Source of the DNA: Oscillospiraceae bacterium
GTDB taxonomy: Bacteria > Bacillota > Clostridia > Oscillospirales > CAG-272
Direction: 5' to 3'
DNA length: 64,000 bases
NCBI GenBank assembly: GCA_015063485.1
Contig: SVUA01000003.1
Coordinates: 51,495 to 115,494, forward strand
Within the stretch, counting starts at the first letter, position 1. Every line of letters begins with the position of its first letter. Under the pieces are notes generated by a model. The model was not told the origin of the DNA and ran no database searches. It was given only the letters and a program-made list of their open reading frames with translations. The position numbers and the translations under genes were made by a program. Below, piece after piece: positions 7,114 to 56,470 of the stretch.

Positions 7114-7872
7114 GTGAATATTTGCTCCGTAACTGTTACACGCATAAGTTCGATAATTAACGTTTATTCCGAAGAAGGCAGATATTTGGAAATAAAAAAC
7201 CGCCCATATTACGGCATAAGCTTTTGCAAAAACGGTAAAATAGAATACGTAAAGAACGGTATTAAGACCGTATCGGACAACACCTGCGCCATTATACTTC
7301 CAAAAGGTCAGAATTACTCGTTATTCGGTACAAAAACGGGCGAATTTCCTTTGATAAATTTCGATACCGACCAAAATATCACCGACGATGTTTTGCGAAT
7401 ACCTCTGCAAAACCCCGAAGCTTATATCCTTGAATTTGAACGTTTGCGCACTTCATGGCAAAATCCATACGGTCAGGCAAAAGCGATGAGTATTTTTTAC
7501 GACGTGTTGGACAGGATGTCGCACGAGGGAAACAACGAAAGCATCTTGCTATCACCTGCTCTTAAATACGTTTCCGAGCACTTTTCCGAGTCTTCGCTCT
7601 CAAACGAATCTCTTGCAGTCGCGGCAAATATAAGCGAGGTATATCTGCGCCGTCTTTTCGTAAAAACATTGAGAATTACGCCAAAACAGTATATTCTTGA
7701 ATTCAGGATACGGCAAGCAAAGCAGCTCCTCTCCGAAAAAGCGTTTACCGTTACAGGCATCGCCGAGAAATGCGGATTCGCAAGTGTTTATCATTTTTGC
7801 CGAGCGTTTAAGACAATAACGGGACAGACTCCTACCGAATACGCCTCAACCGCCGAGCGAACAAAAGGATAG
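7114..7872 (+). CDS. AraC-family transcriptional regulator
   Basis: 252 residues with an N-terminal cupin-like sensing part (ISFCKNGKIEYVKNG, LPKGQNYSLFG) and a C-terminal double helix-turn-helix of about 100 residues (LAVAANISEVYLRRLF, ITGIAEKCGFASVYHFCRAFK-like second helix pair, TGQTPTEY). The start is GTG 7114, seven bases after GGAGGG; the long upstream extension in the ORF track overlaps the divergent SDR gene and is not believable. Divergent placement suggests that it controls the SDR-dehydroquinase-oxidoreductase cluster, probably in response to the substrate of those enzymes. Confidence 0.88.
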   Translation: MNICSVTVTRISSIINVYSEEGRYLEIKNRPYYGISFCKNGKIEYVKNGIKTVSDNTCAIILPKGQNYSLFGTKTGEFPLINFDTDQNITDDVLRIPLQNPEAYILEFERLRTSWQNPYGQAKAMSIFYDVLDRMSHEGNNESILLSPALKYVSEHFSESSLSNESLAVAANISEVYLRRLFVKTLRITPKQYILEFRIRQAKQLLSEKAFTVTGIAEKCGFASVYHFCRAFKTITGQTPTEYASTAERTKG

Positions 7873-8009
7873 TTACTTTTTCTTTTGAAAAAGCAACCTG
7901 AACTAACCTTGCGGTAAGTCCTTAAAGAAAACAAAACATTTTTTACACAGCGTTAGTCAGTCCTCAAACAATGTTTTTTATTAATATACTGAAAATTAAC
8001 AAAATGTCC

Positions 8010-8038
8010 TTGATAATCAAAGCCTTTATTGATATAAT
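8010..8038 (+). promoter_or_regulatory. Promoter of the lipoprotein-cysteine desulfurase pair
   Basis: TTGATA, 17 nt and TATAAT, 45 bp upstream of the lipoprotein start. Confidence 0.6.
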
Positions 8039-8082
8039 AAAAAGGATAAAATAATACCTTTGTTAAAGAAAGGAATAATAAA

Positions 8083-9096
8083 ATGTTCAAAAAGATCACC
8101 GCGCTTATTTTAGCGATTTTGCTCTGCCTCTGTGCGCTCGCTTCTTGCTCAACGTCGGGCGAGGAAGTTCCCGACGGAATGAAATCAGCATATATTTCGG
8201 GTGAGCCCTTCCGCTTGTACATACCTGAAGGCTGGGTATCCAACACACGAAGCGGTGTTTCGGGCGGATATTCTCCTTTGTACGCAGGAGTCAGCGTCAG
8301 CGCGAGATATGATTCAAATATTTCGGCAGACACCGACGTTGCGGCTTATCTTGAAGAATGTTCGGCTAAATATGCAGAAACTCTTGATTCTTACGTAAAC
8401 ACGGGTATATCCGAAGCACTTCTGGGCGGTAAGGACGCGCGCCGTCTTACTTATAATGCAAAGGACGAGGACGGAGTTTCCATGACCTGTTCACAATTCT
8501 GTGCAAAGGACGATAACGGTATTGTTATCTCGCTCTATACCTATTGCCCCACAGAGCTTTTGGAGAAAGCAGAGAACGATATCGAATCGGTTCGCGCGAA
8601 TTTCGTTATCCTTAACGAATCTCCCGTCATTAAAAACGATGAGGTGATCGACAAAAACACTCCCGCGGGTATGAAGATAGCTTCCGATAAGAACGCGGCG
8701 TACAGACTTTACGTTCCGACATCATGGACATGCGAAGCAGAAAATCTTCGCTCCGAGGCTCGCGTTGCTTCTGACGGCTCTAACGTGACCGTAACTCTTT
8801 ATGAGCCGAGCGTTTCGATGTCGATAGAGGATTATTTCGACCGTTGCGCTGAAGACTATCAAAAGGGACTTCGCGGTTACACTCTTATCGAGGCAAATGA
8901 CAGAACGGTCTCGGGCAAGAGCGCGAAGAGCTACACCTACTCGGCAGAGTACGGCAATGCGAAATACCGCATCATGCAGACGGTATTCAGCGACGGAAAG
9001 ATAATGTATTCTATTACCTATACGGCACTCGACGAGAATTTTGATACGCACATGACGGACGTTGAGCTTATTCTTAACTCCTTCAGATTCCGTTAA
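8083..9096 (+). CDS. Lipoprotein with two tandem PsbP-like domains
   Basis: 337 residues with a lipoprotein signal peptide (KKITALILAILLCLCALASC, lipid-modified Cys near residue 22), so it is anchored on the outer face of the membrane. The mature protein has two similar halves. Each starts with a GMK(S/I)A segment followed by (F)RLYxPxxW and a stretch around an EDYF or AYLEEC-like helix, suggesting an internal duplication of a DUF1795/PsbP-like domain. Start ATG 8083 follows AAAGAAAGGAATAATAAA. It ends 10 bp before the cysteine desulfurase gene, so the two are probably co-transcribed, although the link in function is unclear. Confidence 0.7.
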   Translation: MFKKITALILAILLCLCALASCSTSGEEVPDGMKSAYISGEPFRLYIPEGWVSNTRSGVSGGYSPLYAGVSVSARYDSNISADTDVAAYLEECSAKYAETLDSYVNTGISEALLGGKDARRLTYNAKDEDGVSMTCSQFCAKDDNGIVISLYTYCPTELLEKAENDIESVRANFVILNESPVIKNDEVIDKNTPAGMKIASDKNAAYRLYVPTSWTCEAENLRSEARVASDGSNVTVTLYEPSVSMSIEDYFDRCAEDYQKGLRGYTLIEANDRTVSGKSAKSYTYSAEYGNAKYRIMQTVFSDGKIMYSITYTALDENFDTHMTDVELILNSFRFR

Positions 9097-29916: not shown

Positions 29917-30309
29917 TTACACAATTGCTGATACCTCTGAAATGCCGACATCCCAAGTAAGTGTTTTTTTGTAATACATGAGTTCATAACATTTTCCTGG
30001 ATAAATGATATGATGAATCGTATTTGATGACATTAACATAGAGAATCGCACACAAAATGTAATTTCTGTTGGTTTAGTAATATTGATAGAGCGAGCTGTT
30101 TCTCGGTCAATTTTTGCCAATTCTTTACCTGTTTTAGCGTCGCATACAATAGCATATTTAGCACTTCTATCTTTGGAAGTGAATTTTAGCATTGTTGGAG
30201 TAGTTGCGGTGTTAGTATTAACTCCTTTGATTGGATAACCACAGTTGGGACAAGCACTCGCTTGATTTGAAACTTGTTTTCCACATTCTGGACACTTAAT
30301 AAGAGCCAT
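29917..30309 (-). CDS. Zinc-ribbon protein of unknown function
   Basis: 130 residues. The N-terminus is a double-CxxC zinc ribbon (CPECGKQVSNQASACPNCGYPI). The remainder looks beta-rich (MLKFTSKDRSAKYAIVCDAKTGKELAKIDRETARSINI and TEITFCVRFSML) without recognised family. ATG 30309 follows GGAAGGATGTAATT. It lies in the guaA island together with the toxin-antitoxin locus; a specific link is not evident. Confidence 0.75.
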   Translation of the reverse strand: MALIKCPECGKQVSNQASACPNCGYPIKGVNTNTATTPTMLKFTSKDRSAKYAIVCDAKTGKELAKIDRETARSINITKPTEITFCVRFSMLMSSNTIHHIIYPGKCYELMYYKKTLTWDVGISEVSAIV

Positions 30310-30480: not shown

Positions 30481-30915
30481 TCAATCTTGCATTGCACGGC
30501 GAATGTTAACATCTTCCATATCATTAAAAACTTGATATAATCTATCAAACAAAGCATCTATTTCTTCTTTGTTACATCCATTAAACCCAAGAGCTTCATA
30601 GTCATAACATTGTGCCATTTTTTGCAAAGCAGAAATGACTCTATACAATGCTAAATCCATATCGTAAGAGTCTAAGTATACGCCTCTAATGTTCTGATAT
30701 CTTTCGACGATTGAAGCATATCGCTCGATATACATTTTTACATCTGAAACCGAATTTACATCTTGCCACTGCAACCGAACATTTTCGCAATCTCGCTTCC
30801 ATTGTCTTTTCATATCTTTGTCATTGCCCCAACAACTGTCAAGTTTGTGTTTTACATTATATTTATCGTTAAATTCAGTTAATTTTTCTTTGATATAACT
30901 TTTTATATCATTCAT
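30481..30915 (-). CDS. Uncharacterised helical protein downstream of toxN
   Basis: 144 residues, predicted mostly alpha-helical (SYIKEKLTEFNDKYN, DKDMKRQWKRDCENVRLQWQDV, ALYRVISALQKMAQCYDYEALG, EEIDALFDRLYQVFNDME). There are no motifs I recognise and no signal or membrane segments. ATG 30915 follows AGAGGGTTTTCT. It starts 18 bp after the toxN stop, so it is probably read from the same transcript when the antitoxin terminator is passed. Confidence 0.55.
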   Translation of the reverse strand: MNDIKSYIKEKLTEFNDKYNVKHKLDSCWGNDKDMKRQWKRDCENVRLQWQDVNSVSDVKMYIERYASIVERYQNIRGVYLDSYDMDLALYRVISALQKMAQCYDYEALGFNGCNKEEIDALFDRLYQVFNDMEDVNIRRAMQD

Positions 30916-30933: not shown

Positions 30934-31422
30934 TTATTTCATATAATCGGCGCAAGCCTTTTCAAGCAGAAGAAAATCGTTGCAGCGCTTGGCGAGAGAT
31001 GAAGCATCGCCCTCCTTGATTTTAATCTTATAAACGTTCTGCGCGTTCTTCCAAATCTTCTCTTGGATTGACTTGATATAACGGTACTCGGCGAGAAGCA
31101 AAGCGCGGTAGTGCGGATCACGCTCACTTCTGATATCAACGTACTTGGTTTCGCTCAGCGGCACCGGGAACATATTGTTCAGATTGATAACGGCATAGTC
31201 CTTGATCTTAATAAAATCAAGTCCTTCCTTCATAAGCTTGTGCTTGTCCTTAAACGAGGAAAGCGGCGCGAAGTAATCAAAACCGTTGATTCGCAAAACG
31301 ATACCGATATATTTTCTCTCGTTCTTCTGCCCGGACTTCTTGTTCTGAAATAGATGCGGAGCATATGCTGAGAGATATGTAATATAGTTTGCGTTAATCT
31401 CGTAAAGCTTAAGGTTGTCCAT
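30934..31422 (-). CDS. toxN: Type III toxin-antitoxin endoribonuclease (ToxN/AbiQ family)
   Basis: 162 residues. The sequence begins MDNLKLYEINANYITYLSAY, then KYIGIVLRINGFDYFAPLSSFKDKHKLM, INLNNMFPVPLSE, and ends in a helical stretch (YRYIKSIQEKIWKNAQNVYKI...CNDFLLLEKACADYM). These match ToxN/AbiQ proteins, including the PL(S/T)S active-site loop followed by a Lys-rich segment. Such toxins cut RNA at A-rich sites and abort phage infection. I use ATG 31422 with GGAGG five bases upstream; the 45 extra residues in the ORF track correspond to the antitoxin RNA and terminator. The RNA antitoxin lies immediately upstream. Confidence 0.88.
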   Translation of the reverse strand: MDNLKLYEINANYITYLSAYAPHLFQNKKSGQKNERKYIGIVLRINGFDYFAPLSSFKDKHKLMKEGLDFIKIKDYAVINLNNMFPVPLSETKYVDIRSERDPHYRALLLAEYRYIKSIQEKIWKNAQNVYKIKIKEGDASSLAKRCNDFLLLEKACADYMK

Positions 31423-31443
31423 TGAGTCCTCCAAAATAGCAAA

Positions 31444-31468
31444 TGAGGGCAAGTGTGCCTTGCCCTCA
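31444..31468 (-). terminator. Leaky terminator between antitoxin RNA and toxN
   Basis: TGAGGGCAAG-GCACA-CTTGCCCTCA, a perfect 10-bp stem followed by TTTGCTATTTT on the minus strand. In type III systems this terminator sets the ratio of antitoxin RNA to toxin mRNA. Confidence 0.88.
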
Positions 31469-31580
31469 TCACATAACTTTCGCATTCTGAGTAGCGAAAC
31501 ACTCACTTGTAACTTTCTTGAAAGAACCAAGAGAAGTTCGCTTAGTAAGTTTCTCATTTAGGGCTGAGATACACCCACAC
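31469..31580 (-). ncRNA. toxI: Type III antitoxin RNA with three degenerate pseudoknot repeats
   Basis: Between the promoter and the terminator lie three successive H-type pseudoknots. PK0: GGGT-GTAT-CTCA-GCCC-TAAA-TGAG (31576-31553). PK1: GAAC-TTCT-CTTG-GTTC-TTT-CAAG (31539-31517). PK2: GAGT-GTTT-CGCT-ACTC-AGAAT-GCG (31504-31481). In each, stem 1 pairs the first and fourth blocks across an 8-nt loop, and stem 2 pairs the end of that loop with the last block. Linkers are AAACTTACTAAGC, AAAGTTACAAGT and AAAGTTATGTGA. The spacing of 35-37 nt matches type III antitoxin repeats; stem sequences differ completely between units. Confidence 0.8.
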
Positions 31581-31584
31581 TTAT

Positions 31585-31613
31585 ATTATAACCTTTTTAT
31601 GCTGTTTTGTCAA
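31585..31613 (-). promoter_or_regulatory. Consensus promoter of the toxI-toxN operon
   Basis: TTGACA, exactly 17 nt and TATAAT on the minus strand. Transcription would begin near 31578, just before the first pseudoknot. Confidence 0.88.
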
Positions 31614-56193: not shown

Positions 56194-56470
56194 AAAAAAC
56201 ACAGTCAGCTCGATCCTAAATAGGACGAACGACTGCGCTCGCGGTACCACCTATCTTACCGTAAAAAACGGTCTCCTCTACCCTCCCGTAACACGAAAGG
56301 ACGCCATTCTAACGCATAGCACGCGGCGCACCTACTGACAGAACCTCTGCGTTCAGATTGCAGCTCCGAAGTGTTCTTCGCGGGAGATCATTCTGCGCGG
56401 CTCACACCTTTCCGCACTCTCTGTAAGCGATATATCCCGTTACTTTTCTTCATCTTCGCTTTTATACATA
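56194..56470 (-). promoter_or_regulatory. T-box leader (tRNA-Asn responsive) of asnS-asnA
   Basis: On the minus strand the leader has the T-box core GGTGGTACCGCG (complement at 56240-56251). A terminator follows, formed by CAGTCGTTCGTCCTA...TAGGATCGAGCTGACTG, with TTTTTT at 56194-56199. A long stem I precedes it (AGAGAGTGCGGAAAGGTGTGAG ... CGCACCTACTGAC on the opposite strand). CTGAACGC carries an AAC triplet at 56351-56353, a plausible asparagine specifier. Uncharged tRNA-Asn should favour antitermination and raise AsnS and AsnA. Confidence 0.88.

Follow-up and report, generated by a model that had tools for sequence, protein, structure and literature searches.

Type III antitoxins are usually described, sought and modelled as copies of one RNA in tandem. 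The lineage of loci considered here, in which a single toxin gene is preceded by three unlike RNA units, A, B and C, raises a testable question: how are three unlike RNAs recognised by one toxin? One such locus lies in the window analysed here, a 64,000-nt stretch of a contig from an Oscillospiraceae gut bacterium. We judge it to be a ToxIN system (type III) whose antitoxin units have become fully differentiated, its toxin being a ToxN by sequence, fold and catalytic residues.

Organization of the locus and identity of the toxin

A sequence-only reading of this DNA had proposed a promoter, three pseudoknots, a terminator, a ribosome binding site and a ToxN/AbiQ-like gene, and all of these were found again at the locus (Table 1). 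The TTGACA-17 nt-TATAAT element was the top-scoring σ70-type match of the region and recurred in most A-B-C relatives, and the terminator hairpin was retained in relatives despite divergence of its sequence. A GGAGGA ribosome binding site preceded the toxN ATG at position 31422. The units were spaced by 37 and 35 nt in the window, in agreement with the 35–37-nt period reported initially, but the range widened to 35–39 nt in the relatives.

Table 1 Features of the locus, with positions counted from the first nucleotide of the window.
Feature	Position	Strand	Details
Promoter TTGACA-17-TATAAT	31585–31613	−	TTGACA at 31613–31608, TATAAT at 31590–31585; 12/12 consensus
Antitoxin unit A, pseudoknot	31552–31576	−	Stem 1 GGGT/GCCC, stem 2 TCTCA/TGAGA; shuffle test and relatives
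Linker A-B (AACTTACTAAGC)	31540–31551	−	UUA conserved
Antitoxin unit B, pseudoknot	31516–31539	−	Stem 1 GAAC/GTTC, stem 2 TCTTG/CAAGA; relatives
Linker B-C (AAGTTACAAGT)	31505–31515	−	UUA conserved; last base T able to lengthen the C stem
Antitoxin unit C, pseudoknot	31479–31504 (31505 with the extending T)	−	Stem 1 (T)GAGT(G)/(T)ACTC(A), stem 2 TTCGC/GCGAA
Intrinsic-terminator-like hairpin in the gap between array and toxN	31442–31470	−	T tail weak
toxN, endoribonuclease toxin of the ToxN/AbiQ family	30934–31422	−	ATG at 31422, stop at 30934; 162 aa, intact

Two genes on the same strand 3′ of toxN are possible cargo of the locus: one, directly adjacent, codes for a 144-aa protein without a Pfam or NCBIfam match (window 30481–30915, minus strand), and the other for a 130-aa zinc-ribbon protein (29917–30309, minus strand). 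The window also contains a T-box leader (56218–56465, minus strand; Rfam RF00230, 107 bits).

The toxin matched Pfam PF13958 (ToxN_toxin) at 159 of 159 positions (160 bits, 6e-47), and its sequence matches in the PDB were 4ato (ToxN Bt, E = 2e-20), 2xd0, 7d8o and 4glk. Foldseek comparison of its AlphaFold2 model (pLDDT 89.9) returned, at E ≤ 0.001, only ToxN Bt, Ec and Pa and AbiQ (4ato, 7d8o, 2xd0 and 4glk), and CptN structures were absent from both the sequence and the fold matches. Residues R36, S55, S56 and K58 match the catalytic set Lys33/Thr52/Ser53/Lys55 of E. coli ToxN (PMC8860590); among 22 aligned toxin sequences S56 and K58 were invariant, and R36 and S55 were conserved in at least 90%. 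Replacement of Lys33 by Arg is known from some E. coli clusters (PMC8860590). The PF13958 match, the fold matches and the catalytic residues upheld the initial assignment to the type III loci with a ToxN/AbiQ toxin.

Three unlike units with a common predicted fold

The H-type pseudoknot folding of the units rests on prediction and covariation. The best chain of three pseudoknots in the 110-nt array scored 27.9, compared to 5.6 ± 4.0 (maximum 20.2) after dinucleotide-preserving shuffling, and none of 300 shuffled arrays reached 27.9. Stem 2, drawn initially with 3–4 nt, was actually 5 bp long in the units. Tandem Repeats Finder at a minimum score of 30 returned 0 rows at the array, so that repeat-based screens would miss such loci; in the homotypic control locus (L066) it recovered 37 nt × 3.1 copies at 100%. 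A direct repeat search at the array found none, and an Rfam scan of the locus gave no family match at the gathering score. A CRISPR-DR match in Rfam (E = 3.9) at the array was set aside as chance.

The covariation that the sequence-only reading had seen within the array is suggestive only; real covariation came from the relatives, where it was present in stem 1, stem 2 hardly varying. For unit A (31 distinct relatives) all stem cells were paired and one stem-1 pair varied among G-C, A-U and U-A, and for unit B (19 distinct relatives) all cells were paired and three of the four stem-1 pairs had changed on both sides. Covariation was weaker for unit C (25 distinct relatives), with 98% of cells paired and one stem-1 pair changed on both sides. 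Stem 2 was near-fixed inside each unit type and differed between A, B and C; at L034 the stem 2 of C survived an insertion of ~24 nt. This unit-specific fixed stem 2 is the least explained feature of the array. Conservation of the paired blocks, named beforehand as a key test of unlike units with a common structure, was borne out by the related loci.

The linkers had been described as beginning with AAA(C/G)TTA. Among 29 distinct loci, TTA or TAA was retained in 29, 29 and 26 of the linkers following A, B and C, respectively, and AAA in 17, 22 and 13. Thus, the TTA/TAA part of that description was conserved, and the AAA part, which is in part an extension of stem 2, was often lost. The element common to the linkers was xAxUUA, and the case for cleavage inside AAA is weakened, the conserved linker element being UUA/UAA.

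Distribution and position-specific conservation

ToxN relatives were pooled from a scan of a genome collection, three whole-genome surveys (12 of 395, 21 of 394 and 16 of 399 genomes being ToxN-positive), viral contigs, and annotated plasmids and phages. The 81 full-length ToxN loci comprised 37 A-B-C, 4 A-A-C and 40 that were neither, the A-B-C labels being assigned by regular expressions from the conserved loops. As an independent check of the labels, we took for each locus the best match between two 30-nt stretches lying 30–89 nt apart; it had a median of 0.67 (maximum 0.77) in A-B-C loci and of 1.00 in the other loci, where it was at least 0.83 in 39 of 40. The A-B-C array precedes 29 distinct ToxN proteins, with identity down to less than 65%, in several bacterial families and in phage contigs.

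Tandem repeats are expected to undergo concerted evolution. Judged from the aligned sequences, the conservation of the A-B-C arrays is the reverse of that pattern. Array-mates shared a mean identity of 58% against a shuffled baseline of 47% (29 distinct A-B-C loci), and counterparts of A, B and C across loci were 98–99% identical where the toxins were at least 85% identical. At toxin identities below 65% the counterparts still shared 86, 80 and 77% (A, B and C), compared to 50–51% for the promoter and terminator stretches. A unit was closer to its counterpart elsewhere than to any array-mate in 2,395 of 2,436 comparisons, and no permuted or homogenised array occurred among the 29 distinct loci, the A-B-C order being kept throughout.

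A three-unit array was present with every full-length ToxN of the A-B-C/A-A-C clade, and no full-length toxin beside a broken array was seen among the relatives. Broken toxN genes beside an intact array were found at L021 (stop), L037 (start lost) and L038 (deletion). In 390 family genomes no array lacking ToxN was found, the sole new case being a contig end. A first viral scan using the ToxN protein gave no match, and array scans of the viral contigs did; a DNA-similarity search for the array in sequenced phages and plasmids produced short chance matches only. An A-B pattern in about 15 marine phage contigs was rejected as a coincidence of coding sequence; in those inspected the spacing was constant and an array was lacking.

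Origin of the A-B-C array

On a maximum-likelihood tree of ToxN (73 rows), the 33 distinct A-B-C and A-A-C toxins split from the remainder with support of 100/93. The A-B-C toxins formed a single clade (support 89/92, recovered in 88% of bootstrap trees), and the A-A-C lineages L035/L036, L090 and L005 were successive sisters nested with it. In the outgroup L039 the array was mostly of the A kind, except for an unlike unit in the middle. The A-A-C arrays resemble A-B-C in their sister ToxN lineages, in having three units and in placing C last, but their middle unit is of the A type (a diverged A in L005) and B is missing. On this tree A-B-C arose once, out of A-A-C arrays; on a simple reading the units would have differentiated stepwise, C at the last place first and B in the middle afterwards.

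The closest relatives have the guaA neighbourhood in common, L004, L015 and L018 being collinear, and the more distant loci lie elsewhere. At the guaA site, L041, L042 and L044 contained toxN remnants and no array, which represents recurrent loss. ToxN was not found in the other sampled members of the genus.

Proposed working of the locus

This is very probably a type III (ToxIN) locus with a precursor encoding three unlike pseudoknots, and we propose that it works in the following way. Transcription would begin just 5′ of unit A and would mostly end at the terminator, so that antitoxin RNA would outnumber toxN mRNA. In each of the three linkers (A-B, B-C and C-3′), ToxN would cleave the precursor at or beside UUA/UAA, and it would then grip the products via their common single-stranded overhangs, an arrangement that would leave the pseudoknot cores free to differ. 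In solved ToxIN systems ToxN cuts the precursor and holds the units by the overhangs at their 5′ and 3′ ends (PMC8860590), and a 3:3 ring is closed; by analogy, an inactive ring of three ToxN and three RNAs would close here. Once the short-lived RNA was lost, as might happen on phage infection, the nuclease would be free, with phage defence as the presumed outcome.

This proposal is supported by the relatives with a decayed toxN at the guaA site, which lack the array, and by the units outlasting promoter and terminator in conservation. Each precursor holds exactly three units, the number in one 3:3 ring. The core pseudoknot of ToxI alone gives no ToxN binding (PMC8860590), and recognition of shape plus linker, as the sequence-only reading had put it, is plausible by analogy. 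Against the proposal, the known ToxN cleavage signal is A-rich, whereas the conserved element here is UUA/UAA. In addition, antitoxins of related toxins in the CptIN family did not cross-inhibit (PMC4627078), so that one toxin cannot simply be assumed to accept three unlike cores, and recognition through overhangs only leaves the unit-specific invariance of stem 2 unexplained. The long coexistence of one toxin with three unlike cores is a natural experiment on what ToxN reads, such as overhangs and shape, and what it ignores.

Why the units differ

One explanation, which we rate at slightly below an even chance, is a copy-number lock: the units, each doing the same job, would have diverged and stayed so since identical repeats slip, recombine or can be taken up by phages, and since the level of defence depends on the antitoxin dose. 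The invariable presence of exactly three units in A-B-C and A-A-C arrays speaks for it. AbiQ defence depends on repeat number (PMC5086642, PMC5772629), and identical ToxI repeats slip during cloning and ToxI was taken up by a phage through recombination (PMC3475682), which gives such a lock a known benefit. It is compatible with the mechanism proposed above and would explain why the units differ. However, it predicts units that merely differ, and not an invariant stem 2 and loop proper to each unit over such toxin divergence, and most ToxIN loci manage without a lock.

A rather unlikely alternative is an ordered ring: within a 3:3 complex each of A, B and C would have its own place, or would be set apart by its affinity or by the step at which it is assembled, each transcript thus yielding a single ring. 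The A-B-C order in 29 of 29 distinct loci, free of permutation or homogenisation, is consistent with this arrangement, as are the exact match in number to the solved 3:3 rings and the last place of C everywhere, A-A-C loci included. Yet ToxN is one protein whose sites are all identical, two alike units suffice in the A-A-C relatives, and the order may persist merely because unlike units cannot recombine; the conserved order therefore fits a fixed ring position and a copy-number lock equally. That each unit keeps its own stem 2 unchanged speaks for separate roles of the units. A further version of the ring reading, which we regard as unlikely, holds that the units are non-interchangeable, each transcript contributing an A, a B and a C to an ordered, asymmetric ring of three ToxN in which the fixed stem 2 and loop of each unit would make a place-specific contact or serve an assembly step. 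If so, the order of the RNAs within a toxin-antitoxin complex would be programmed. The unlike units make ring assembly testable through distinguishable parts.

It seems improbable that one or two units only act as antitoxin while the rest stabilise the transcript, control the terminator or act as binding decoys. In favour of this reading, the linker after C varies more than the other two (UUA/UAA in 26 of 29), and a single repeat is enough in a CptIN system (PMC4627078); against it, both stems and the overhang motifs are kept in all three units. A leader peptide or N-terminal extension of ToxN was rejected as having next to no chance of being right. A 207-aa frame does run open from ATGAGA in unit A into toxN, both in the window and in several of the close relatives, but in many other relatives it is out of phase or contains stops (loop 3 of unit B varies from 3 to 6 nt) with the stems kept, and a terminator and ribosome binding site lie between.

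Phage loci and PBECR4 nucleases

A complete A-B-C locus adjoins a terminase gene on the phage contig L106. On a sibling tailed-phage contig, L237 (IMG/VR 3300026522_000176), an orphan A-B-C array lies at 7808–7920 with toxN absent. The two contigs are 95–99% identical on either side and have the array at the same place; in L237 toxN is replaced by a module (7983–8873) consisting of a promoter, two 51-nt repeats, a terminator and a PBECR4 nuclease gene. The stems of the L237 array are intact and the UUA of its inner linkers is lost (CATTTAC to CTGCTGC and AGTTAAG to AGCCCCG). At L169, A-B-C and ToxN are intact and are accompanied by an orphan RNA of 51-nt repeats without the nuclease. Orphan antitoxins acting as protection from a sibling's toxin would explain both L237 and L169. 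Changes in the 3′ overhang abolished ToxI activity in another system (PMC3475682), which makes an inactive relic another possible reading of the array in L237.

Five PBECR4 nuclease genes from the same taxonomic order (L276, L277, L279, L280 and L282) each had a drum RNA (Rfam RF02958) and then a terminator in front of them. Drum RNA may therefore be the RNA partner, perhaps the antitoxin, of PBECR4 nucleases; no paper on its function turned up in the literature searched.

Comparison with known type III systems

The CptIN and TenpIN systems share with the locus the type III layout, and the CptI antitoxin is also a pseudoknot; its unit is 45 nt long and the complex 2:2 (PMC4627078). The toxin of the locus, in contrast, matches only PF13958 and the solved ToxN and AbiQ. 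With the ToxIN family (ToxIN Pa, Bt and Ec, and AbiQ/antiQ) the locus has in common the ToxN fold, the catalytic residues, H-type pseudoknot units of ~36 nt, and the order of promoter, array, terminator and toxin. The family arrays consist, wholly or largely, of one unit in tandem, whereas no two units of this locus match and each is conserved separately. The homotypic ToxIN arrays of Bacillota (for example L066, L045 and L065) likewise share the pseudoknot frame and the toxin family, but their units are identical or nearly so. Earlier ToxIN surveys relied on near-identical repeats found by Tandem Repeats Finder, which this array lacks, and the locus is therefore filed as a divergent ToxIN variant related by descent rather than as a standard member. 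Such repeat-finding criteria overlook whole subfamilies.

The claim that known antitoxins have nearly identical repeats proved too strong and describes a tendency only. At least two well-matching units were present in 39 of the 40 other ToxN arrays, which contained 2–4 scorable units, compared to exactly three in A-B-C and A-A-C; of the 28 other arrays that could be scored, however, about 9 were mixed, at least one unit showing a compensated change in stem 2 (a fixed-geometry unit finder gave 13, of which 4 were terminators or other false units by eye). Mixed arrays were observed on several branches of the ToxN tree (L011/L076, L047, L049, L055, L069, L258 and L260), with the patterns A-B-A, A-A-B and A-A-A-B. 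Mixed type III arrays thus look commoner than the literature suggests, and their repeated origin on the tree suggests a general pressure, for example control of the antitoxin dose or protection against capture by phages, of which we found no treatment in the literature searched. Unlike units per se are not unique to this locus; what is unique to the A-B-C arrays is their complete and long-conserved differentiation.
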